From Shouchella clausii (GTDB taxonomy: Bacteria; Bacillota; Bacilli; Bacillales; Bacillaceae_D): 64,000 nucleotides of DNA. Location of the stretch: contig NZ_BCXJ01000001.1 in NCBI RefSeq assembly GCF_001598215.1, forward strand, positions 806,001 to 870,000, written 5' to 3'. The notes beneath the pieces are model-generated. The model saw only the letters and a program-made list of their open reading frames with translations. It made no database searches and was not told the DNA's origin. A program made the translations under genes and the position numbers. Positions 5,194 to 62,951 of this stretch are shown in pieces; position 1 is the stretch's first letter; each line of letters starts with the position of its first letter.

Positions 5194-6093
5194 ATGGATT
5201 TAAGAAGCATTAAGACCTTTCAAACGATTATCAAGCATGGCAGCTTTCAAAAAGCTGCAGAAGAGCTGTCCTACGCACAATCGACGATTACGATGCAAAT
5301 GAAAAAACTGGAAAGTGAGCTAGGAGTGGTTCTTATTGAACGTGGGAAGCCATTTCAATTAACAGAGGCTGGACGTCTCCTCGCATTACAAGGTGATTTG
5401 CTCCTTCAAGAATTTGAACGATTACAAGAACGGATGAATGCATTAGTAAAAGGAGAAACTGGGCATATCCGGGTTGGTGCAATGGAACCAGCAGCTAGCT
5501 ATCGCTTGCCTTACGCACTCGCACCGTTTTACGAAAAGTTTCCGAGGGTAAATGTCAGCGTCCAAATAGAAAGCAGCAGAAAGCTAATCGAGATGGTTGA
5601 GGCCGATGAGCTTGACTTGGCTATTTGTACAGCTGCAAATGTGCCGACGACAGTTCGCTTTTTGCCGCTGTTTCTTGAAGAGGTCGCCATATTAATGCCA
5701 GATGGCCATCCCCTTGCTAATGAGAAGGACATTTCATTGCCCCAGTTGGAAAACGAGCCCATGTTAATTACAACTGCTGCGTGTCCATTCAGGAGAAACA
5801 TTGAAAAGCAAATGCAGGATCGTGGACTGCGGCCAACTTATCGAATGGAGATAAGCAATATGTTGGCGCTAAAGCATTATGTTCAAGCAGGGTATGGGAT
5901 AGCAGCGGTTCCCATCCGTTGTGTGATGCCTCCTCCTAAAGGAACAGTCCTGAAGGCGATCCGCCTGTTTGAAGAAGATTTGCTAGTCGGTCTTGCGGAA
6001 AATAAAACAAAACCGTTTGGCAGAGTAGCGACATCGCTTAAAGACATTCTTCAAAAAAACCTCCGATATGAAAAGGAACCAATTCAAAAATAA
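5194..6093 (+). CDS. LysR-family regulator, probably of the adjacent organosulfur operon
   Basis: A 299-residue LysR protein: N-terminal winged HTH (LRSIKTFQTIIKHGSFQKAAEELSYAQSTIT split over residues 3-33), linker helix, then a type-2 periplasmic-binding-protein-like effector domain starting near GHIRVGAMEP. The ATG at 5194 follows AAGGAGGGTG; a GTG at 5152 in the same frame has no ribosome site. It lies 100 bp upstream of, and on the same strand as, the flavin reductase/ssu genes. LysR proteins (CysL, YtlI, Cbl) are the usual activators of sulfonate-use genes, so it is inferred to sense sulfur status or an acetylserine-type effector. Confidence 0.9.
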   Translation: MDLRSIKTFQTIIKHGSFQKAAEELSYAQSTITMQMKKLESELGVVLIERGKPFQLTEAGRLLALQGDLLLQEFERLQERMNALVKGETGHIRVGAMEPAASYRLPYALAPFYEKFPRVNVSVQIESSRKLIEMVEADELDLAICTAANVPTTVRFLPLFLEEVAILMPDGHPLANEKDISLPQLENEPMLITTAACPFRRNIEKQMQDRGLRPTYRMEISNMLALKHYVQAGYGIAAVPIRCVMPPPKGTVLKAIRLFEEDLLVGLAENKTKPFGRVATSLKDILQKNLRYEKEPIQK

Positions 6094-6193
6094 TGAATAG
6101 AAACTTCATTTTTTTCAATTATACAAAAGCGTTATGTTTCGTTATAGTAGTATTAATCCGATGGGTTAACTTTAATTTAAGAGGGGTGATTGT

Positions 6194-6739
6194 GTGAGCA
6201 AGACTGTATTAATATATGGAGGAATTAGCAAGCAGTCCAGGTTGATCGGTTTATGGCAAAAGGCGTCTTCTGTTTTTGCTGAGTACAGCGAAAAAGTAGA
6301 AACGATCTTTGTTCATGAGTTGCCTGGAAATGACTTATTGGCCGCCAACTCTAAAAGCGAAGCGGTACAACAGGCGAAGCAGAAGGTGGAACAAGCGAGC
6401 ACCATTGTTGTGTTTACTCCGATTTATAAAGCGTCATTTAGTGGGATTTTAAAAACGTTCCTTGATTTGTTGCCTCAAAAAGTATTTTCCGAAAAAATCG
6501 TTTTGCCGATAGCAATTGGCGGTACTTTTGGCCATCTTCTTGCAATTGACTACGCACTTAAGCCTGTTTTAGCGGCCTTAGGGGCGACCACCATTCTTAG
6601 CGGTGTTTTTGTGCTCGATCAAGACGTAAAACAAGGAGATTCAGGTACATATGTGTTAACGGGACCAGCGGATGAACGTCTCGAACAACAAGTGCGCCTC
6701 GCTCAAAGAACGGCGCAGTTGTCCTTTATAACCAACTAA
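6194..6739 (+). CDS. NADPH-dependent FMN reductase (SsuE-like)
   Basis: Flavodoxin-fold flavin reductase, 181 residues, of the SsuE family. It supplies free FMNH2 to the two-component monooxygenases encoded next to it. The family signature TPIYKASFSGILKTFLDLLP (about residues 76-95) and the GGTFGHLLAIDYALKP segment are clear. The GTG start at 6194 follows GAGGGGTGAT. It is the first gene of a run of seven same-strand genes with short or overlapping junctions (to 12071), so it is likely co-transcribed with both monooxygenases and the SsuBAC importer. Confidence 0.9.
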   Translation: MSKTVLIYGGISKQSRLIGLWQKASSVFAEYSEKVETIFVHELPGNDLLAANSKSEAVQQAKQKVEQASTIVVFTPIYKASFSGILKTFLDLLPQKVFSEKIVLPIAIGGTFGHLLAIDYALKPVLAALGATTILSGVFVLDQDVKQGDSGTYVLTGPADERLEQQVRLAQRTAQLSFITN

Positions 6740-6764
6740 ATTTATGAGAAAAGAAGGAAACATG

Positions 6765-8069
6765 ATGAGCAAAAAGATGAGGCTTGGAGTGTTTTTAATG
6801 GGTGCTGGCCACCATATTGGTGCTTGGCGCCACCCCAAAGCAGCAGCTGATGCCTACGAAAGCATCGACTTTTATAGACAAGTGGCTCTGTTAGCTGAAA
6901 AAGGGAAGCTTGATATGTTGTTTATTAGTGATGCCCTGTCATTGACAGAAAAAAGCCATCCGTCTGAGTTGGTCCGATTCGAACCGCTTACGCTCGTGTC
7001 TGCTCTAGCAATGACGACAGCTAAAATTGGATTGGCGGCTACCGCAAGCACGACTTATAATGAACCGTTTCATATCGCCCGCAAGTTTGCATCAATCGAC
7101 CATTTAAGTAATGGCCGCTCTGCTTGGAACATTGTTACCTCTTATTACGAAGAGGAAGCGTACAACTTCGGCGATTTGCCTCACCCGCCACATGCAAAGC
7201 GTTACGAACGAGCAGCAGAATTCGTCGAGGTCGCCAAAAAACTGTGGCGTAGCTGGGAAAGAGGGGCAGTCATCCGAAATCAACAAACAGGGATTTACTT
7301 TGACGCAAACAAAGTCCATGCCGTCAACCATAAAGGCAAATATTTTTCGGTCAAAGGCCCATTAAATGCATCGGCGCTGCCGCAAGGGGAGCCTGTCCTG
7401 ATTCAAGCCGGTTCCTCCACTTATGGCACTAAGTTTGCAGCTCGATACGCAGATGTTGTCTTTACAGCACAACAGCATTTAAGAGGGGCAAAGCGATTTT
7501 ACCGTAACTTAAAAGAGCAAGTCGCCGCCGCCGGGCGGCTGCCGGAAGAGGTTCTCGTGATGCCAGGCATTTCGCCGATAACAGCCAACTCAAAAGAAGA
7601 AGCAGAGGCGATTTACGAAGAGTTGCAGTCGCTGTTAGATGAGGAAACGAGTTTGGCTTTTTTATCAGACTATTTAGGGAAAGTATCTTTTTCGAGAAAA
7701 CAGCTTCACCAACCGTTATCTATTGCTGACTTGCCGCCTACAAATGGCAACCAAAGCAGGCGCGACCTAATCGTCGAGCTTGCTAGCCGCGAGCAATTGA
7801 CCGTTTTGCAATTGGCACGGCGTGTTGCCGGGGCGAGAGGGCACCATATTGTTTGCGGTTCCCCTACACAAATTGCAGATGTCATGGAGACATGGTTTCG
7901 GGAAAAAGGAGCAGACGGCTTTAATTTAATGTTTCCTTATTACCCAGGCTTAATGGAAACATTTATCGAACAGGTCATTCCCATTTTGCAACAACGAGGG
8001 CTGTTCCGCCTTGATTATGAAGGGGAAACATTACGTTCTCATCTTGGTTTACATGAACATCAAGTTTAA
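6765..8069 (+). CDS. FMNH2-dependent monooxygenase, NtaA/SnaA/DszA family
   Basis: Bacterial-luciferase-fold oxygenase of about 434 residues. It belongs to the NtaA/SoxA/DszA/SnaA group, which uses FMNH2 from a partner reductase and attacks C-S or C-N bonds. Family features visible are the N-terminal MGAGHHIGAWRHP segment, the DHLSNGRSAWNIVTS motif and YPIxF-type C-terminal PYYPGLMETFIEQVIP. Two ATGs (6762, 6765) follow AAGAAGGA; 6765 has better spacing, and an in-frame ATG at 6744 lacks a ribosome site. It lies between the SsuE-like reductase and a small conserved gene. The substrate is probably an organosulfur compound (sulfide, sulfone or thiophene type) but cannot be read from sequence. 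Confidence 0.88.
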   Translation: MSKKMRLGVFLMGAGHHIGAWRHPKAAADAYESIDFYRQVALLAEKGKLDMLFISDALSLTEKSHPSELVRFEPLTLVSALAMTTAKIGLAATASTTYNEPFHIARKFASIDHLSNGRSAWNIVTSYYEEEAYNFGDLPHPPHAKRYERAAEFVEVAKKLWRSWERGAVIRNQQTGIYFDANKVHAVNHKGKYFSVKGPLNASALPQGEPVLIQAGSSTYGTKFAARYADVVFTAQQHLRGAKRFYRNLKEQVAAAGRLPEEVLVMPGISPITANSKEEAEAIYEELQSLLDEETSLAFLSDYLGKVSFSRKQLHQPLSIADLPPTNGNQSRRDLIVELASREQLTVLQLARRVAGARGHHIVCGSPTQIADVMETWFREKGADGFNLMFPYYPGLMETFIEQVIPILQQRGLFRLDYEGETLRSHLGLHEHQV

Positions 8070-55006: not shown

Positions 55007-55035
55007 TTGAAAAAGCGCTTACAAAACGTTAAAAT
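55007..55035 (+). promoter_or_regulatory. Promoter of the TRAP/hexulose-type operon, cre-like spacer
   Basis: TTGAAA (55007-55012), 17 bp, TAAAAT (55030-55035). The spacer AAGCGCTTACA with the preceding A run is cre-like (about 12 of 14 positions), so CcpA control is likely. Confidence 0.7.
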
Positions 55036-55048
55036 GCAATTAGTTTAC

Positions 55049-55066
55049 TACTAAATCGGTTTAGTA
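55049..55066. promoter_or_regulatory. LacI-type operator of the TRAP operon
   Basis: TACTAAATCGGTTTAGTA, an 18-bp inverted repeat with one mismatch, between the -10 element and the ribosome site of the LacI gene. Autoregulation of the whole operon is expected. Confidence 0.7.
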
Positions 55067-55078
55067 AGGAGGAATTGA

Positions 55079-56083
55079 ATGGCTAGCGTCACAATGGCAG
55101 ACGTAGCAAAGCTTGCAGGTGTTTCAAAAAGCACCGTATCGCAATTTCTCAACAAACGCTATCACTATATGAGCGAAGAAACAAAGAGCCGAATCGAACA
55201 GGCGATTAATGAGTTAGGCTATAGCCCAAATGCGGTGGCGAGAAGTCTACGGCAGAAAAAAACGCAAACGATTGGCGTCATTGTTGCCAACATACTCCAT
55301 AGTTTTTCTACTGAAGTGATTCGCGCGATTGAAGATACATGTCATGCCTATGATGTCCATGTCATTGTCTGCAATGCAGATAACGACCCCCAGAAAGAAA
55401 AAAGGTATGTGGAGATGTTGCGAGCAAAGCAAGTTGACGGGTTGATCGTTTTTCCTACAAGCGACAATAAGGAGCTATTTAATGGACTCGTCGCTGCTCG
55501 TTTTCCTCTTGTTTTTATCGATAGGCTCATTCATGGTGTCCCTGTAAATGCTGTTCTTGCCGATAATGAAGAAGCGATGCGTTTGGCAGTCAATGCATTA
55601 GCAGCAAATGGTCGGCGTCGAGTTGGCTTAGTGCTTCCACCGCTTTTAGAGGAAATTACCCCGCGAATGGAACGGCGGGACGGCTTTATGAAGGCGATTA
55701 GTGAAGCAGGACTCGAGTATGAGGAAGCGTATGTAGCGGCGGGGCAAGTAGAGGAAGCCCCACGTTTTCTTGCCAAAATGCTGGCGCTGCCAACTCCGCC
55801 TGATGCCGTTATTGCCGGAAATGATCTAGTTCTGTATGAATTGCTGCGCTCAATCAAACAGCAAAAAATCGACGTTCCTGAACAAATTGCATTAATTGGG
55901 ATTGACGATGTGACCTTTGCTGATTTTTTTAATCCGTCCATTACGACTGTAGCTCAGCCGACATTTACAATGGGCCATAAAGCTGCTGAGCTACTGCTGG
56001 AAGAAATCAATGGAGGCAAGAAACGTTCAGAAAATCGCATTCACCGCTTTCAGCCAACCTTAAAGTGCAGGCAATCTTGCTAA
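55079..56083 (+). CDS. LacI-family regulator of the TRAP operon (KdgR-like)
   Basis: A 334-residue repressor with HTH TMADVAKLAGVSKSTVSQFL and an effector core (IGVIVANILHSFSTEVI; LIGIDDVTFADFF). General style is like KdgR of B. subtilis, which controls 2-keto-3-deoxygluconate use. First gene of an eight-gene operon with short or overlapping junctions, behind a promoter with its own operator. The effector is probably a sugar acid or phosphorylated sugar used by the pathway. Confidence 0.9.
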   Translation: MASVTMADVAKLAGVSKSTVSQFLNKRYHYMSEETKSRIEQAINELGYSPNAVARSLRQKKTQTIGVIVANILHSFSTEVIRAIEDTCHAYDVHVIVCNADNDPQKEKRYVEMLRAKQVDGLIVFPTSDNKELFNGLVAARFPLVFIDRLIHGVPVNAVLADNEEAMRLAVNALAANGRRRVGLVLPPLLEEITPRMERRDGFMKAISEAGLEYEEAYVAAGQVEEAPRFLAKMLALPTPPDAVIAGNDLVLYELLRSIKQQKIDVPEQIALIGIDDVTFADFFNPSITTVAQPTFTMGHKAAELLLEEINGGKKRSENRIHRFQPTLKCRQSC

Positions 56084-56102
56084 TGAAGGAGAGTGGGCAT
56101 TT

Positions 56103-57107
56103 GTGAGAAAACAGCTGTTTTTGTTGGCTACAGCCGTCTTATTGCTTAGCGGCTGTGCTGCCGTAAAAGAGACGGTGGACAACGATCCAGGGGATCCGAA
56201 AAAGCTAATTTTGGCGACACAACTAGATGCCAATAGCCCATACGCAGTCGGTTTTCAAGCGTTTAAAGAAGCGGTTGAGGAAAAGACGGGAGGCGCTGTG
56301 ACTGCAGAACTTCATACGAATGGCTCGCTAGGCGGCAATGAGGATATGCTGTTGCAAAGCATTGCCACAGGCGGGGTTGATATGGCTGTCATTTCGCCTG
56401 GGTTTATGACACAAGTCTTGCGTGAAGTTGACTTATTTTCGCTGCCGTATTTATTCACTAGCTATGAACATTGGGAGCGCGTTGTTGACGGCGAAATTGG
56501 CATGGAAATGAGCGAGATGATTGAAAGGGACACAAACTTGCAAGTGCTCGGCTACTGGACAGCGGGGGTACGACAGTACTATGGGCCAGAGCCTCTTGCT
56601 CATATAGACGATTTGCGCAATGTCAGCATTCGAACACAAGACTCGCCTGCCATCCAGGATAGTTGGACAGCGCTAGGAGCGCTGCCGACAAGTGTGGCCT
56701 GGGATGAGATGTATCAAGCGTTGCAAAATCGGGTTGTCGATGCATCGGAAAATGATTTTACAAATATTTATCAGTCGAGCCATCATGAAGTGACGCCTTA
56801 CTTGACGTTAACAAACCATGATTATACGACACGTTTCTTTTTAACATCGGACATTGTAATGGAGCGCTTCTCTAAAGCAGAACAACAGGCGATCTATGAA
56901 GCGGCGGATGAGGCGACTGTTGCCGCCCGCCAAGCGGATAAGGAATTGGCAAAACAGTCCCTTGAACGGCTAGAGGAGGAGGGGGCAATTGTCCACGAAA
57001 TCGACACCGGCCCATTTATTGAACGGACAGAAGAAGTAAGAGAGAAAGCAGCAGCGCAATTAGGCGCGACCGAACTTTATGAAAGAATCCGCTCCTTGGC
57101 GGATTAG
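56103..57107 (+). CDS. TRAP transporter solute-binding lipoprotein DctP family
   Basis: A 334-residue binding protein, lipobox LLSGC (Cys about 17). DctP fold: LILATQLDANSPYAVGFQAF, ELHTNGSLGGNEDMLLQSIATGGVDMAV, the substrate-carboxylate Arg in NVSIRTQDSP, and ALGALPTSVAWDEMYQALQ. The conserved Arg forms a salt bridge to a carboxylate in known members, so an organic or sugar acid is the probable ligand. GTG start, with AAGGAGAG upstream. Confidence 0.92.
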   Translation: MRKQLFLLATAVLLLSGCAAVKETVDNDPGDPKKLILATQLDANSPYAVGFQAFKEAVEEKTGGAVTAELHTNGSLGGNEDMLLQSIATGGVDMAVISPGFMTQVLREVDLFSLPYLFTSYEHWERVVDGEIGMEMSEMIERDTNLQVLGYWTAGVRQYYGPEPLAHIDDLRNVSIRTQDSPAIQDSWTALGALPTSVAWDEMYQALQNRVVDASENDFTNIYQSSHHEVTPYLTLTNHDYTTRFFLTSDIVMERFSKAEQQAIYEAADEATVAARQADKELAKQSLERLEEEGAIVHEIDTGPFIERTEEVREKAAAQLGATELYERIRSLAD

Positions 57108-57123
57108 AAGGAGGGCGCAAATC

Positions 57124-57618
57124 ATGAAGGCGTTTTTAAATAGTCTGGAGTGGGTACTCATGCGCGCTGCGGCGGTGTTCTTTGTTGGTTTTGTCGTATG
57201 CATATTTTTACAGCTGCTATCGCGTTACGTGCCGGGAATCACGATTTTATGGGCAGCGGAAATTGCCACATATGCGTTTATTTGGACAGTGTTTTTAGGC
57301 GCTGCTGTTATGGTCCGCCACCAAGAACATTTTAGAATTGATTATTTATATGAAAAACTTGCAGGCATGCCGTTGCTTTTAACCAAACTGGTCAGTCACG
57401 TGTTGATTGGTGCTTTCGGTGCTGCCATGGTCGTTTATGGCTCTAAGCTAACGCATTTGTTTTGGGAATGGACAGTGAACACGCTGCCAGGGCTACAGCA
57501 AGGATACTTGTGGCTTGTCCTTCCTGTATCTGGATTTGCGATGTTGGCCTTTGCCATTGGCAATGCTGTGGAAGATATTGGCGCACATTCTTTAAAAAAG
57601 GAAAGTGATGCGGCATGA
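57124..57618 (+). CDS. TRAP transporter small permease DctQ family
   Basis: A 164-residue protein with four TM segments, LSRYVPGITILWAAEIATYAF being the family core (WxEExxxY variant). ATG at 57124 follows AAGGAGGG. ATGA overlap with the large permease. Confidence 0.92.
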   Translation: MKAFLNSLEWVLMRAAAVFFVGFVVCIFLQLLSRYVPGITILWAAEIATYAFIWTVFLGAAVMVRHQEHFRIDYLYEKLAGMPLLLTKLVSHVLIGAFGAAMVVYGSKLTHLFWEWTVNTLPGLQQGYLWLVLPVSGFAMLAFAIGNAVEDIGAHSLKKESDAA

Positions 57619-58892
57619 TCGGGTTCTTTTTAGTGCTATTGTTTATTGTGCTCTTGTTTTTAGGGGTGCCCATTGCATTTACGCTTGGAATTGTCGCTTT
57701 TGTAGGCATCTGGCTTCTCGATGCCATGCCGTTGCAAATTGTTGTGCAGACGATGTTGAGTGGTGTGGAATCCTTTATTCTACTGGCAGTGCCTCTCTTT
57801 ATTTTAGCGGCAAACATTATGAACCAAGGGCAAATTTCAGAGCGTTTAATCCAATTGGCAGTATCGATGGTCGGTCACATTCGCGGCGGTCTCGCTCAAG
57901 CCAATATAGTTGTGTCGATGTTTTTCGGTGGCATTTCTGGTTCTGCACAGGCAGATACAGCTGGCGTCGGAAAAATCTTGATTCCAAGCATGATGAAGGA
58001 AGGCTATGGCAAATCAACCGCCGTCGGTACAACAGCGGCATCTTCTACAATGGGCTTGCTTATTCCGCCAAGCATTCCGATGGTTGTGTATGGCAGTGTG
58101 ACAAGTGTTTCTGTTGGGCAAATGTTTGTTGGCGGCATTATACCAGGCCTTTTAATGGGCGTAGCGATGATGGCTCTTGTCGCCTTCGTTTCTCATAGGC
58201 AAAATTATCCCCGCCATGAGCGTGTTAAACTCGCTGAAATTGGCCGACAATTTCTAAAGTGCGTGCCGCCATTATTGACGCCTTTGATTATTTTAGGGGG
58301 AATCATCGGTGGGTTTGTCACACCGACAGAAGCGGCGATTATTGCCTGCTTATATGCTCTCATTTTAGCGATGTTCGTCTACAAAACCATTAAATGGAGG
58401 GATATTCCAGAGATCTTATTTGATACGATCCGTCTAAGTTCCCTCACACTTTTTGCGTTAGCAACAGCAAGTGCCCTTGGTCGGCTATTTAGCTACTACC
58501 GCGTACCCGACACGATTGCCGAATTTTTTGATTCGACATTCTCAAGCGCCAGCCTGTTTTTGCTTGCGGTCATTTTATTGTTTCTGTTTGTCGGGATGTT
58601 TTTAGATGCCATTCCAGCAATGATTTTGTTTGTGCCAATCGTCCTGCCAGCGTCACAAACACTTGGCATCGATCCGATTCATTTTGGTATTGTCATCGTG
58701 ATGTGCTTGGCTGTCGGCATGATTACGCCGCCTTATGGCCTATGTATGCTGTTGGCAAGTTCAATAGCGAAATTGTCTGTTAGTCGTTCGATTGTTGCTT
58801 TATTGCCCTATGTAGCTGTCATCCTTGTGGCGATTTTAATTGTTGCGTTTGTGCCGGCTGTGGCGTTATGGCTGCCAAGCTTTTTAAATTGA
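57615..58892 (+). CDS. TRAP transporter large permease DctM family
   Basis: A 425-residue, about 12-TM permease driven by a Na+ or H+ gradient. Family motifs: GGISGSAQADTAGVGKILIPSM, GLLIPPSIPMVVYG, FVTPTEAA and GMITPPYGLCM. In an alkaliphile, Na+ coupling is likely. Starts inside the dctQ stop. Confidence 0.94.
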   Translation: MIGFFLVLLFIVLLFLGVPIAFTLGIVAFVGIWLLDAMPLQIVVQTMLSGVESFILLAVPLFILAANIMNQGQISERLIQLAVSMVGHIRGGLAQANIVVSMFFGGISGSAQADTAGVGKILIPSMMKEGYGKSTAVGTTAASSTMGLLIPPSIPMVVYGSVTSVSVGQMFVGGIIPGLLMGVAMMALVAFVSHRQNYPRHERVKLAEIGRQFLKCVPPLLTPLIILGGIIGGFVTPTEAAIIACLYALILAMFVYKTIKWRDIPEILFDTIRLSSLTLFALATASALGRLFSYYRVPDTIAEFFDSTFSSASLFLLAVILLFLFVGMFLDAIPAMILFVPIVLPASQTLGIDPIHFGIVIVMCLAVGMITPPYGLCMLLASSIAKLSVSRSIVALLPYVAVILVAILIVAFVPAVALWLPSFLN

Positions 58893-58910
58893 TACAAGGA
58901 GGAAGAACAA

Positions 58911-59462
58911 ATGGACTCATTTAAGGGGACAGCCCAAGCATGTGTAGAGGAAATAAGTACGGTTATTGCCCACACAAAGGAAGAAGAGCTGGTGGCGATT
59001 GCCCAAGGACTTAAACAAGCCCGGCGTATTTTTATTAGCGGCGATGGCCGTTCTGGCCTAATGGGCAAAGCGATTGCCATGCGTTTAATGCATGGAGGCT
59101 ACGAGGTGTACGTCGTCGGCGAAACGATTACACCAAGCATTGGTGAAGGCGATGTCCTGCTTCTCGTTTCTGGCTCAGCGACAGGAGTCGCAGCTAGGCA
59201 GTTTATTAAAAAAGCAAGGCAAGCTGGTGCCAAGGTGATGCTTGTGACCGCAAACCGGGAAACAGAATTCGGCGACCTTTGCGAAACATGTTTGTTAGTA
59301 CCAGCAGCGACAAAACAGCGAAAGCCGGATGAACCAAAAACGATTCAGCCCTTAGGTAACCAATTTGACCAAAGTATCCATCTTATATTGGATGCCATTG
59401 TTGTCAAGCTAACAAAAGAAAAACAGGCAGAAATGAAAGGGCGCCACGCCAATTTGGAATAG
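58911..59462 (+). CDS. SIS-domain sugar-phosphate isomerase, 6-phospho-3-hexuloisomerase (HxlB/PHI)-like
   Basis: A 183-residue SIS protein. PHI landmarks: SGDGRSGLMGKAIAMRLMH (residues 43-61), VVGETITPSIGEGD, LVSGSATG and LVTANRETEFGDL. PHIs convert D-arabino-3-hexulose-6-P to fructose-6-P by moving the keto group between C2 and C3. Where usual PHIs carry FEQ near the C-terminus, with a proposed catalytic Glu, this one has FDQ (Asp153), so its substrate may differ. AGGAGGAAG precedes the ATG. It is separated from the HPS-like gene by rpiA and a kinase, and no HxlR regulator is present. Confidence 0.85.
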   Translation: MDSFKGTAQACVEEISTVIAHTKEEELVAIAQGLKQARRIFISGDGRSGLMGKAIAMRLMHGGYEVYVVGETITPSIGEGDVLLLVSGSATGVAARQFIKKARQAGAKVMLVTANRETEFGDLCETCLLVPAATKQRKPDEPKTIQPLGNQFDQSIHLILDAIVVKLTKEKQAEMKGRHANLE

Positions 59463-59478
59463 GAGGGGAACGTCTTAT

Positions 59479-60165
59479 TTGGATAAGCTGAAGAGAATGG
59501 CGGCGGAAGCTGCAGCAGAGTATGTGAAAGATGGCATGAAGATCGGGCTAGGGTCAGGTTCAACTGTGTTTGAATTTGTCCGTGTGTTAGGAGAGAAAGC
59601 AAAACAAGGGCTGAACATACAAGCTGTGGCGGCCTCACGTAAAACGGAAGCGCTCGCTAAGGCGTGTGGCATACACCTCATCGACTTCCCAGCAAGGGGA
59701 AAGCTGGAGGTTACTTTTGACGGAGCCGATGAAATTGCCCCTGGCCTCATGCTGTTAAAAGGGGGCGGCGGGTCGCTTTTACGGGAAAAGCTGGTAGCGG
59801 CAGTGGCGAAGCGTCTCATCGTGATCGCTGATGAAAGCAAGCTTGTAAAGGAGCTAGGCGCTTTCAAACTGCCAGTCGAGATCATTCCATTTGGCTGGGA
59901 AACAACGGCGATGCGGATTGAAGCGCTAGGCGGTGTGGCGAGTTTACGGCAAACGGGAAAAAGTCCATTTGTTTCAGATAACCATAATTGGATACTTGAC
60001 TGTGATTTTGGCACCATTCGCGATCCCTATAGCTTGCACGACGAGTTGAAAAAACTTGTTGGTGTCGTAGAAACAGGCCTATTTTTGAACATGGCTTGCG
60101 AAGCGATTGTAGCAAGGCAAAACGGTATCCATCATTTAACAAAAGGAGACGAATTCAATGTTTGA
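59479..60165 (+). CDS. rpiA: Ribose-5-phosphate isomerase A
   Basis: Interconverts ribulose-5-P and ribose-5-P, 228 residues. RpiA motifs: GLGSGSTV (active-site loop), TFDGADEI, LLKGGGGSLLREKLVA and IADESKLV. TTG start behind AGGAGGGGAA. RpiA is unusual in Bacilli, where RpiB is the common housekeeping form; its place inside a catabolic operon says that the pathway yields ribulose-5-P (or ribose-5-P). Overlaps the kinase gene by 8 nt. Confidence 0.93.
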   Translation: MDKLKRMAAEAAAEYVKDGMKIGLGSGSTVFEFVRVLGEKAKQGLNIQAVAASRKTEALAKACGIHLIDFPARGKLEVTFDGADEIAPGLMLLKGGGGSLLREKLVAAVAKRLIVIADESKLVKELGAFKLPVEIIPFGWETTAMRIEALGGVASLRQTGKSPFVSDNHNWILDCDFGTIRDPYSLHDELKKLVGVVETGLFLNMACEAIVARQNGIHHLTKGDEFNV

Positions 60166-61108
60166 TGTCATTACACTAGGAGATGCAATGATCTCTTTTA
60201 GCCCAAATGCGACGGGACCATTAAAATTTGTCCACTCGTTCGAGCGCCGTGTCGGCGGAGCTGAATTAAATGTGGCGATCGGCTGTTCACGACTCGGTTT
60301 AAAAGCAGGCTGGATTACCCGGCTTGGGAAAGATGAATTTGGCCAGCATATTCAAACATTTGCCCGAGGCGAAGGCGTAGACGTCAGCGAAACGAAACTA
60401 GTCGATGGCTATGCAACATCGCTTAACTTTAAAGAAATCATGGCAAACGGGGCGGGGCGCACTCTTTATTATCGCAATCCGTCGCCTACAGAAACATTAA
60501 AGCCAGAGGATTTACAGCCAGGTTATTTCCAACAAGCAAAGATTCTCCATTTAACAGGGATTTACCCAGCTGTCGCCCCTGGCAATATGGCAGTGACCAA
60601 GCAAGCAATCAAGCTTGCCAAAGAAAATGGCGTAAAAGTTGCTTTTGACCCGAATATCCGTCTGCGCCTTTGGAGCAAAGAGGAAGCGCGACTTGCTCTG
60701 TACCCGCTTTTGCAAGAAGTCGATATTCTCCTCACAGGCGATGAAGAGATGGAAATTATTCTTGGGACAAGCGATCCAGCTGAGATTATCGCCGAAGCGA
60801 CCAAGCTTGGGATTGAACTAGTAGCAATCAAACGAGGGGAGAATGGCTCAATCGGCAGTTATCAGGGCAAAGTCGTCGAGGCAGCACCGGTGCCGGCAGC
60901 AAAAGTCGTCGACACAGTTGGCGCTGGTGACGGCTTTGATGCTGGACTGTTGTATGGCTATCTCCAAGGCTGGCCTCTTGAACGGATGCTGGCATTTGCC
61001 AACACAATAGGATCGATGGTCGTCAGCATTGTCGGGGACAACGAAGGCTTGCCTTATTTAGAAGAAGTGCAAGCGCAGCTCGGTGAGCTTGAACGAATTG
61101 AACGATAG
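60158..61108 (+). CDS. PfkB-family sugar (acid) kinase, KdgK-like
   Basis: A 316-residue ribokinase-fold kinase. Motif 1 GGAELNVAIGCSRLG and motif 2 DTVGAGDGFDAGLL with the catalytic Asp, plus FDPNIRLRLW. Closest in style to 2-keto-3-deoxygluconate kinases (MISFSPNATGPL; YYRNPSPTETL). In this operon it probably phosphorylates the imported sugar or sugar acid at its terminal hydroxyl. AAAGGAG precedes the ATG inside the rpiA end. Confidence 0.9.
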   Translation: MFDVITLGDAMISFSPNATGPLKFVHSFERRVGGAELNVAIGCSRLGLKAGWITRLGKDEFGQHIQTFARGEGVDVSETKLVDGYATSLNFKEIMANGAGRTLYYRNPSPTETLKPEDLQPGYFQQAKILHLTGIYPAVAPGNMAVTKQAIKLAKENGVKVAFDPNIRLRLWSKEEARLALYPLLQEVDILLTGDEEMEIILGTSDPAEIIAEATKLGIELVAIKRGENGSIGSYQGKVVEAAPVPAAKVVDTVGAGDGFDAGLLYGYLQGWPLERMLAFANTIGSMVVSIVGDNEGLPYLEEVQAQLGELERIER

Positions 61109-61131
61109 TTGTTGAGGAAAGGGGAATCGAC

Positions 61132-61761
61132 ATGAAGTTGCAGCTTGCCCTCGACCGCCTTGATTGGGAAACCTGTTTTGCGTTAGTGGAAGATACAAGT
61201 GACGCTATTGATATAATTGAAATAGGCACTGGCGTTATCAAAGAATATGGCATGGAAATCGTAAGGCAAATGCGCAAAGCATTTCCCCGGCACACGTTGC
61301 TTGCAGACATGAAAATTTGCGATGCCGGAAAGCATGAGGCACGACAAGCGTTTGCAGCAGGCGCCGATATCGCAACGGTAATGGCATTCGCTCCAACTAC
61401 CACTATTGGGGAGACAGTTTCAGTAGCCTGCCAAGAAGGCAAAGAAATGATGGTTGACCTCCTTGGCGTCGACAAAACTGAGCAAGTGAAGGCATTGAAA
61501 GAGCTAGGCGTTTCATTTGTCGGACTTCATCTCGGCAAGGACGAACAGCAGCATAAACAGCTGGGGCAAGGACTGTTTCAGTTAGTTGAGAGGACTGGAC
61601 TAAAAACTGCTATTGCCGGCGGTGTTACCATTGAATCGTTGCCAACGATTCTTCCATACCAGCCAGACATTATCATTGTCGGCAGCGGGATCACCAAGGC
61701 CGAAAAGCCAAAAGAAGCGGCGATGCGCATAAAAAAACAAATGAAAGCGTCATTAGGATAA
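61132..61761 (+). CDS. HPS/KGPDC-superfamily lyase (3-hexulose-6-phosphate synthase-like)
   Basis: A 209-residue (beta/alpha)8 protein of the OMP-decarboxylase superfamily. Asp8, Glu30, the DxKxxD motif (Asp59-Lys61-Asp64) and His133 match both HPS and KGPDC. At the discriminating places it is mixed: Lys67 after DAG is KGPDC-like (HPS has Glu), Asp109 is HPS-like (KGPDC Glu112), and Lys136 stands where KGPDC has Arg139 and HPS a neutral residue. So the reaction could be aldol cleavage (formaldehyde) or beta-keto-acid decarboxylation (CO2); both give a pentulose-5-P. AAAGGGG precedes the ATG. Last gene of the operon. Confidence 0.85.
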   Translation: MKLQLALDRLDWETCFALVEDTSDAIDIIEIGTGVIKEYGMEIVRQMRKAFPRHTLLADMKICDAGKHEARQAFAAGADIATVMAFAPTTTIGETVSVACQEGKEMMVDLLGVDKTEQVKALKELGVSFVGLHLGKDEQQHKQLGQGLFQLVERTGLKTAIAGGVTIESLPTILPYQPDIIIVGSGITKAEKPKEAAMRIKKQMKASLG

Positions 61762-61792: not shown

Positions 61793-62833
61793 TTACGTGC
61801 AAACAATAGCTGGATTTCTTTCTAGGATGTTAAGCGCCGCTTCACACATCGTTCCCATCTCTGAACGAGTGTAGGCGGCTTTTTTTAGCAAATCAGCATG
61901 ATTAGCAATGCCGATATCGGCTAACGCTTCTTGAAAATAGCCGAACTCTGCTTGATGGCTAGTTGGGCAATCTGCAGCTAATATCATGTGGCAGCGGGCA
62001 AACGTGGCGATGATCCAAAAAACGGCCTCGCGGTGGTGGCCTTCATCAATCAGTTTTTCTGTGCCATCTACCGCCAGCGGACGTGCTTCTAGTGAAATAT
62101 CAGAGCTAAAAAAGAAAGGTGTTTTTTTCAGCTTTACCGTAACGTCAAACGTATGGGCCAGTGCCGTCAAATGACGCTTGGCCTGTTTGGCATCCATGTG
62201 TTGGCAATCTAGTTGGCTAAGCAAATGCTCATATACGTCCTCTAGTTGGTAAGAGGTGAGCACTTCTTTTGCCGCTAAATAACGAAGCCGTACAGTAGGG
62301 TTGCGTAAGGCGGCAACAAGAAAAAGATGGGCGACGACACCAGTCGGGAAAAGCCAGTTCATGACAAGCTCGTGAAACGGTTTTTTAACGTGAAGCTGTT
62401 CTAGCCCTCTCTCTGATTTTGAACGGACATCGTCAAGGCGGCGCTTGACCCATTGTTCTTGGCAAAATTGGCGTGATACTTCCTTTTGCAAAGGCTTGAG
62501 AAACCCTTCTAGGTCAACGATAATCGTATCGGTTTGAAAGGCATGGGCGATATGGTAGTGGGACAGAACGGCCTCAGACGATGAAAGCGCCCTTTCGGGA
62601 ATATATGAAACTTCTAGTAAAACACCTTTATAGCGAAATTTTCCAATTTTTAAAGGAGGCTCCTCTAAAGACGTGACAACCATGATGTCTAAGTCTGAGT
62701 GAGGCGCCAAGTACGAAGTATCTGCCTGTTCAGCGGCGGAACCACTAAAATAAGCTCCTTTGAACCACTTTTTTCCCTCGGCATATGCCCATACCCATTC
62801 ATGAGCAATTTCCTTGGCTTTCCATACCTTCAT
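61793..62833 (-). CDS. Nucleotidyltransferase-like (DNA polymerase beta superfamily) protein
   Basis: A 346-residue soluble protein. N-terminal nucleotidyltransferase motif GSAAEQ...HSDLDIMVV (Gly-Ser, then Asp-x-Asp) with the third acidic residue probably in VLLEVSYIPE. The remaining 220 residues are helical, as in aminoglycoside nucleotidyltransferase-like or KNTase C-domain proteins. ATG at 62833 follows GGGAGG. Antibiotic modification is one possibility, but many such proteins have other roles. Confidence 0.75.
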   Translation of the reverse strand: MKVWKAKEIAHEWVWAYAEGKKWFKGAYFSGSAAEQADTSYLAPHSDLDIMVVTSLEEPPLKIGKFRYKGVLLEVSYIPERALSSSEAVLSHYHIAHAFQTDTIIVDLEGFLKPLQKEVSRQFCQEQWVKRRLDDVRSKSERGLEQLHVKKPFHELVMNWLFPTGVVAHLFLVAALRNPTVRLRYLAAKEVLTSYQLEDVYEHLLSQLDCQHMDAKQAKRHLTALAHTFDVTVKLKKTPFFFSSDISLEARPLAVDGTEKLIDEGHHREAVFWIIATFARCHMILAADCPTSHQAEFGYFQEALADIGIANHADLLKKAAYTRSEMGTMCEAALNILERNPAIVCT

Positions 62834-62951
62834 CAAGCATTCCTCCCTTTATGACTGCTAGGCTTCGCGAGAAAGTCATTTTTTCCTCTATGAAAATTTT
62901 AAAATTAGCGATAAACACATACTCTCCCCCCGTGGTGTATAAGAGTGTAGG

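Follow-up and report, generated by a model that had tools for sequence, protein, structure and literature searches.

An operon of Shouchella clausii probably devoted to the catabolism of a 2-keto sugar acid through relatives of HxlA and HxlB

The analysed stretch of DNA (the window) covers 64,000 nucleotides of Shouchella clausii (NCBI RefSeq assembly GCF_001598215.1, contig NZ_BCXJ01000001.1, positions 806,001 to 870,000 of the forward strand) and contains, in the region 55007-61761, an operon of eight genes. It combines a LacI-type regulator and a tripartite ATP-independent periplasmic (TRAP) transporter with a PfkB kinase, an isomerase related to 6-phospho-3-hexuloisomerase (PHI, HxlB), a lyase related to both 3-hexulose-6-phosphate synthase (HPS, HxlA) and 3-keto-L-gulonate-6-phosphate decarboxylase (KGPDC), and ribose-5-phosphate isomerase (RpiA). 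We infer its substrate, its regulation and all its catalytic steps from sequence comparison, on which basis the operon probably catabolises a 2-keto sugar acid, most likely 2-ketogluconate, by the succession kinase, isomerase, lyase and RpiA.

The operon and its conservation

The features of the locus are as follows.

55007-55035, + strand: promoter-like site TTGAAA-17-TAAAAT (pattern match)
55050-55065, no strand: predicted palindromic LacI-type operator ACTAAATCGGTTTAGT (exact place, and similar palindromes in relatives)
55079-56083, + strand: LacI-family regulator (family match)
56103-57107, + strand: DctP, TRAP solute-binding protein (family match)
57124-57618, + strand: DctQ, TRAP small permease (family match)
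57615-58892, + strand: DctM, TRAP large permease (family match)
58911-59462, + strand: PHI-like SIS isomerase with Asp153 at the position of the HxlB Glu; proposed 2-keto- to 3-keto-6-phosphohexonate isomerase
59479-60165, + strand: RpiA, TTG start (family match)
60158-61108, + strand: PfkB kinase from the sister clade of KguK; proposed 2-keto-hexonate 6-kinase
61132-61761, + strand: HPS/KGPDC-like lyase with Lys136 (position of UlaD Arg139) and Cys63; proposed 3-keto-6-phosphohexonate decarboxylase giving ribulose-5-phosphate

The eight same-strand genes with short or overlapping junctions described in the initial annotation were all recovered from the open reading frame (ORF) listing, and the operon itself is confirmed: the coordinates give gaps of 16-23 nt and otherwise overlaps of 4 and 8 nt, and a Shine-Dalgarno-like sequence can be seen by eye before every gene start. 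The family assignments hold, and the transporter is complete in its three subunits. The mechanical ORF start of DctQ lies earlier, at 57079, and would overlap DctP. RpiA is the only PF06026 match found in the genome of the window. Neither an aldolase gene nor an ORF for the reductase KguD is present among the eight ORFs.

A contig scan with an alignment of 12 lyases gave at least 536 relatives, the best 80 of which were kept as operon loci (cited by L numbers, and genomes by G numbers); being chosen by the lyase, this set is enriched in close relatives and comes mostly from Bacillaceae. Among the matches listed, the closest named locus is that of Shouchella tritolerans, whose lyase is 99% identical. 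Within 9.5 kb of the lyase, on its strand, the PHI-like gene occurs in 79 of the 80 loci, PfkB in 78, and LacI and each TRAP subunit in 77. A search of genome neighbourhoods for conserved kinase-SIS-HPS-RpiA sets, which had been suggested at the outset, found the core set (LacI, all TRAP subunits, PfkB and PHI together with the lyase) in 73 of the 80 loci, and RpiA within the same distance in 42, on the lyase strand in 36 and on the opposite strand in 6. Seven loci are incomplete: L053 and L061 are without the kinase, L074 and L102 are cut at contig ends, L119 has no TRAP gene within 13.5 kb, and L075 and L125 have a LacI match just past 9.5 kb. Counted anywhere in the locus, a gene resembling 2-keto-3-deoxy-6-phosphogluconate (KDPG) aldolase is found in 53 loci, a small cupin in 17, a KguE-like gene in 6 and Ldh2 in 6. 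The DctP proteins of the relatives score from about 108 to 737 against the window protein, and therefore the binding proteins differ among them.

Genes of pentose phosphate metabolism recur in these neighbourhoods, namely RpiA, as counted above, transketolase with transaldolase (L186) and 6-phosphogluconate dehydrogenase (L128). In L186 (2723-6732) the transketolase and transaldolase genes directly adjoin the isomerase-lyase pair. L128 (8951-17620) is a Planococcus operon which holds the dehydrogenase gene, and its kinase groups with the aldolase-linked kinases and not with the usual one. Just upstream of the operon in L138 (8973-12028) lie an FGGY-type kinase and a gene of the 6-phosphogluconate dehydrogenase type, perhaps a gluconate operon. 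The isomerase-to-RpiA start distance in L036 of G001 (5451-7801) exceeds that of the window by about 1.8 kb, an apparent insertion; the lyase match of G001 was flagged with one TGA. The operons of L140-L142 with L239-L241 comprise LacI, PfkB, PHI, Ldh2, TRAP, a zinc dehydrogenase, KDPG aldolase, UxuA, a short-chain dehydrogenase/reductase (SDR) and the lyase, and perhaps represent a mannonate branch.

Lyase, isomerase and kinase

Both the lyase (250.1 bits, cut-off 200) and the isomerase (205.2 bits, cut-off 160) of the window pass the NCBIfam thresholds for HxlA and HxlB, respectively. Their active-site residues and their phylogeny set them apart from these families. Arg139 matters for the function of KGPDC; together with Glu112 and Thr169 it marks the specificity positions of that enzyme, as reported from mutational work on KGPDC and HPS. 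At position 139 (UlaD numbering), UlaD and SgbH have Arg, and canonical HxlA proteins have Tyr (4/5) or Leu (1/5), whereas Lys is present in all 81 operon lyases, in which Cys at 66 and Met at 87 are also invariant.

The lyase tree was built from 28 operon, 14 kgu-type, 21 canonical HxlA and 4 KGPDC rows, kgu-type denoting loci that resemble the 2-ketogluconate operon kguEKTD. Besides the window it used 23 of the 80 named lyases, picked for spread, and the isomerase and kinase trees used similar subsets; left out of the lyase alignment were the near-identical L013, L015 of G001 (one TGA) and L018/L026 of G009 (two pieces). Operon and kgu-type lyases formed one branch (95/84), apart from canonical HxlA and KGPDC, with bootstrap values that are not fully settled; L184, L110 and the Gluconobacter row have long branches. 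Membership of the window lyase in the HxlA clade linked to HxlR and Zwf was considered and rejected on this placement.

A survey of lyases made independently of the operon comprised 55 places, 54 from 151 genomes of the class Bacilli and one from a family search, some of them on short contigs. The residue at position 139 was Tyr in 39, Lys in 10, Val in 2, Arg in 2 (both ula), Ile in 1 and Ala in 1. Within 6.5 kb the Tyr lyases were accompanied by HxlR in 26 cases, Zwf/Gnd in 10, LacI in 1 and PfkB in none. PfkB was found within this distance of four of the Lys lyases and in the extended region of three more (L140-L142), and the remaining three (L143, L162, L184) have a KguT-like transporter; near L143, which comes from another lineage, an HxlR-like gene also lies on the opposite strand. 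All three Val or Ile lyases have PfkB within 6.5 kb, which makes 7 of the 13 Lys, Val and Ile lyases overall, and two of them (L186, L187) carry KguE-like and KguK-like genes.

The Glu of the F-E-Q motif of HxlB has a catalytic role. It is conserved in 18/18 HxlB proteins and replaced by Asp in 38/38 operon and kgu-type isomerases; the window protein, tried as an HxlB by this residue, has Asp153 instead. In the isomerase tree the same 38 rows split from the 18 HxlB rows (98/96). The operon pair thus shares common ancestry with the pairs of the kguEKT-type loci, separate from canonical HxlAB.

A further lyase-isomerase pair lies elsewhere in the genome of the window (G000:C1:156572 and 157228), next to homologues of HxlR and Zwf, and no match to HxlR or Zwf was found in the 80 operon loci. 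The existence of that hxlAB pair makes an ordinary formaldehyde HPS less likely in the operon, as do the trees and the residue changes at the active site, and by these comparisons the operon lyase and isomerase are not the ordinary HxlA and HxlB of formaldehyde metabolism.

The best solved match of the window kinase is the 2-keto-3-deoxygluconate kinase of Thermus (203 bits), with which the YYR, N-x-R and GAGD segments are conserved. In such kinases these segments bind the acid. L120, L130 and L138 have two kinases each, one beside HPS/PHI and a KguK-related one beside the aldolase. The accessible part of one report describes that 2-keto-3-deoxygluconate kinases also phosphorylate 2-ketogluconate, less efficiently, and that KguK of C. 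necator accepts 2-keto-3-deoxygluconate and none of 11 plain sugars (PMC6651773).

Relation to 2-ketogluconate loci and other known systems

As far as the source could be consulted, all four kguEKTD genes of Pseudomonas plecoglossicida are needed for normal use of 2-ketogluconate and are under the control of the LacI-type PtxS (PMC11678583). Several relatives have a major facilitator superfamily (MFS) transporter near HPS and PHI, and six such transporters are 62-67% identical to the one encoded in an operon on a Klebsiella plasmid. The annotations there read LacI, sugar-phosphate isomerase/epimerase, sugar kinase, MFS transporter and, as last gene, GhrB reductase. Because this gene order matches kguEKTD, we infer a kgu operon in Klebsiella. 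The LacI adjoining it is 31.6% identical to that of the window, and its kinase is 38.6% identical to the window kinase.

A search of 299 Bacilli genomes with the transporter (E 1e-120) gave 19 KguT-like loci. In 12 of these HPS and PHI are encoded on the strand of the transporter, a few genes away at most, six of the 12 being already part of the lyase survey, and the GhrB/KguD protein had no match within about 6 kb in any of the 19. The other seven loci had no match to the HPS/PHI pair or to the kinases nearby. Seven KguT-like genes (L207, L209, L210, L212-L215) have no kinase, reductase or lyase match nearby, and palindromes resembling PtxS sites lie upstream of LacI in L207, L212, L213 and L214. 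KguE-, KguK- and KguT-like genes occur together with HPS and PHI in L167, L203, L205 and L211, the three proteins of L167 being 35, 55 and 65% identical, respectively, to those of the Klebsiella operon. In L172 (2734-4713) the KguE-like and PfkB kinase domains are fused in one protein of 659 residues, adjoining KguT, HPS and PHI, which may hint at the role of KguE. KguE-like genes also adjoin 6 of the 80 TRAP-type operons, next to LacI, with KguE matches of E 1.5e-19 or better and not as UlaE or SgbU. Relatives of the transporter occur in 856 plasmid records; among eight neighbourhoods, one (L198) is kguEKTD-like, four contain SDR and enolase-type genes, and L199, with a sugar kinase and a dehydrogenase of the C-terminal-binding-protein type on the opposite strand, may be related, while the remaining two gave no information. 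The substrate is therefore not fixed by the transporter alone.

The operon resembles kguEKTD/PtxS of Pseudomonas, as far as that system is covered by the accessible part of its description (PMC11678583), in its LacI-type control, PfkB-family kinase, dedicated uptake and predicted substrate, and loci related to the operon share KguE, KguK and KguT. It differs in having TRAP in place of KguT, a kinase of a sister clade, and PHI with a decarboxylase-like lyase (and RpiA) in place of KguD. With the yiaK-S operon of Escherichia coli (2,3-diketo-L-gulonate) it shares uptake by TRAP, a lyase from the KGPDC/HPS group and the presence of a kinase, and with the KGPDC proteins SgbH and UlaD (yia and ula, the latter for L-ascorbate) the basic residue at position 139; however, D112 and A169 of the operon lyase are HPS-like, the kinase differs, and PHI and RpiA replace the L-pentulose-phosphate epimerases. 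In the 80 loci SgbU had no match and SgbE two weak and distant ones (43 bits, L063 and L068). HxlA-HxlB of the ribulose monophosphate (RuMP) pathway belong to the same protein families and show the same pairing of lyase and isomerase, but the proposed reaction order in the operon is the reverse, with the isomerase first, and the LacI/kinase/TRAP context, Lys136, Asp153 and the separate clades are further differences. The kdg-type pathway for 2-keto-3-deoxygluconate (kinase and KDPG aldolase) has a related PfkB kinase and a counterpart in the aldolase-like gene of many relatives, whereas the window operon is without aldolase and the relatives keep the isomerase more constantly than the aldolase.

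Proposed pathway, alternatives and regulation

In the pathway proposed here the TRAP transporter would import a 2-keto sugar acid with six carbons, 2-keto-D-gluconate being the most likely one, and the PfkB kinase would convert it to the 6-phosphate. The PHI-like isomerase would then shift the keto group from C2 to C3, the lyase would decarboxylate the resulting 3-keto-6-phosphogluconate to ribulose-5-phosphate and CO2, and RpiA would form ribose-5-phosphate. PHI, which transposes a keto group between C2 and C3, could act on 2-keto-6-phosphogluconate and not on the 3-deoxy acid, because a C3 hydroxyl is needed. Being a beta-keto acid, like those in the reactions of KGPDC and 6-phosphogluconate dehydrogenase, the 3-keto product decarboxylates. 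The isomerase-lyase pair would replace KguD and 6-phosphogluconate dehydrogenase, no NADPH being spent and regained.

This route had been suggested in the initial annotation, and the gene set, the trees, the kgu-type loci and the residue changes lend it support. The fit to 2-ketogluconate, noted there on paper, gains from the relatives of PHI and lyase in kguE-kguK-kguT-type loci that gave no match to KguD, from the adjoining KguE genes and from the likeness of the kinase to the 2-keto-3-deoxygluconate kinase of Thermus, an enzyme type that also phosphorylates 2-ketogluconate, the exact substrate staying a prediction. We incline, with somewhat less assurance, to the wider view that a redox-neutral pathway for 2-ketogluconate is widespread among Bacilli. 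In it relatives of HxlA and HxlB, each with one changed motif residue and scoring as RuMP genes, would provide two new activities, a 2-keto-6-phosphogluconate 2,3-ketoisomerase and a 3-keto-6-phosphogluconate decarboxylase, dispensing with KguD and 6-phosphogluconate dehydrogenase. In function the operon probably resembles a 2-ketogluconate operon, yet by the tests made it falls outside the kgu, HxlAB and KGPDC families.

No description of PHI or hexulose-phosphate synthase in 2-ketogluconate breakdown was found in the open-access literature, which was surveyed in part and with paywalled work not covered; a pathway with this gene set, of which the initial annotation knew none, was likewise not encountered there. 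The genes hxlA, hxlB and kguK are named together, in the accessible part of one report, in a predicted list of nodule microbiome genes, without a pathway (PMC10017544). If the proposal is true, two enzyme activities would be added, together with a route from sugar acid to pentose phosphate which skips reduction and re-oxidation, and many genes of Bacilli scoring as hxlA/hxlB would not be formaldehyde genes, so that genome-based claims of RuMP assimilation would need checking. The residue signatures (lyase Lys at UlaD 139, isomerase Asp for Glu) could serve as a simple test, although the Lys is missing from three kgu-type lyases. The enzymes would also illustrate how decarboxylase and aldolase functions diverge inside one family.

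Several observations weigh against this proposal. The best family matches of the window kinase are 2-keto-3-deoxygluconate kinases, below their cut-offs, and the kinase, expected to be a KguK orthologue, was placed by its tree in a clade (22 rows, 99/98) that is sister to the one containing KguK, in a tree whose root is unsure because of the long E. coli branches; this placement casts more doubt on the exact substrate than on the chemistry. Two of the 80 operons (L053, L061) have no kinase. Of the KGPDC specificity positions, the lyase shares only the basic character at 139, since positions 112, 139 and 169 are D, K and A in all 81 operon lyases, with D and A as in HPS, and not Glu, Arg and Thr. 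The Lys position is occupied by Val or Ile in three kgu-type lyases (L185-L187), and in L184 Arg replaces the active-site His of the other lyases. In the genome of the window neither a KguT-like gene (E 1e-120) nor a match to KguE was found, the latter empty answer alone proving nothing. A KguD-like dehydrogenase lies 4.7-8.9 kb from the lyase, outside the operon, in 6 of the 80 loci, different from the six with KguE-like genes (L082, the best with 255 bits, L097, L100, L106, L118 and L126); these dehydrogenases are a broad family. The KDPG-aldolase-like gene in 53 of the 80 loci implies that those operons also, or mainly, handle 2-keto-3-deoxygluconate. A weak point is offered by Gracilibacillus timonensis, which carries the operon (L112) and is recorded, in the part of its description consulted, as API 50CH-negative for 2-ketogluconate, but also for glucose and nearly everything else (PMC6485780). 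Oceanobacillus massiliensis, which may or may not carry the operon, is API-negative for 2-ketogluconate according to the accessible part of its description (PMC4062624).

The same chemistry might serve another 2-keto-hexonate giving D-ribulose-5-phosphate, such as 2-keto-D-allonate, or 2-ketogluconate that an Ldh2-type enzyme would form intracellularly from an aldonate such as D-mannonate. The position of the kinase outside the KguK clade, the divergence of the DctP proteins and the genes added in relatives (Ldh2 in 6/80, UxuA in 3/80, an SDR of the mannonate oxidoreductase type, a zinc dehydrogenase, and the L140-L142 and L239-L241 operons) are consistent with this, but we hold it to be unlikely, as the kgu-type relatives and the adjoining KguE genes point to 2-ketogluconate and RpiA suits D-ribulose-5-phosphate, in direct product line from that acid. 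That the operon serves the breakdown of 2-keto-3-deoxygluconate or uronates, with PHI and HPS as side players, appears improbable: the likeness to the Thermus kinase and the frequency of aldolase-like and UxuA genes would agree with it, but the window operon has no aldolase, PHI and PfkB are more constant than the aldolase in the 80 loci (chosen by the lyase), the 3-deoxy acid offers PHI no C3 hydroxyl, and L120, L130 and L138 keep one kinase by HPS/PHI and another by the aldolase. An ordinary RuMP pair recruited to a sugar operon and releasing or fixing formaldehyde is very improbable, for although both proteins exceed the NCBIfam cut-offs and the Lys lyase of L143 has an HxlR-like neighbour, the genome has its own HxlR/Zwf-linked pair, lyase and isomerase fall in separate clades with the Tyr to Lys and Glu to Asp changes, and HxlR and Zwf had no match in the 80 operon loci.

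The 2-ketogluconate operon proposed here would be regulated by its substrate through LacI. Of the single promoter and operator first predicted, the operator was upheld: a palindrome centred on CG, in which 14 or more of the 16 positions match, precedes 57 of the 80 operon-type LacI genes (window and 79 loci), or 60 of 96 once the kgu-type LacI genes are counted as well, compared with 1.9% of shuffled upstream sequences. The exact pattern ACTAAAYCGRTTTAGT occurs once in the window's own genome, at the operator. With up to two mismatches it gave fewer matches than the reversed control in 8/9 genomes, and for this reason no wider regulon is claimed. The promoter did not fare as well, since promoter-like matches in the region (10) are at the level expected from shuffling (10.8), and the site at 55007-55035 is weak evidence, suggestive at most. 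Positions 55007-55024, overlapping its -35 element, resemble the consensus of a CcpA cre site. Downstream of the operon a convergent gene (61793-62836) gave no Pfam match, and its start resembles, by eye, a nucleotidyltransferase motif.

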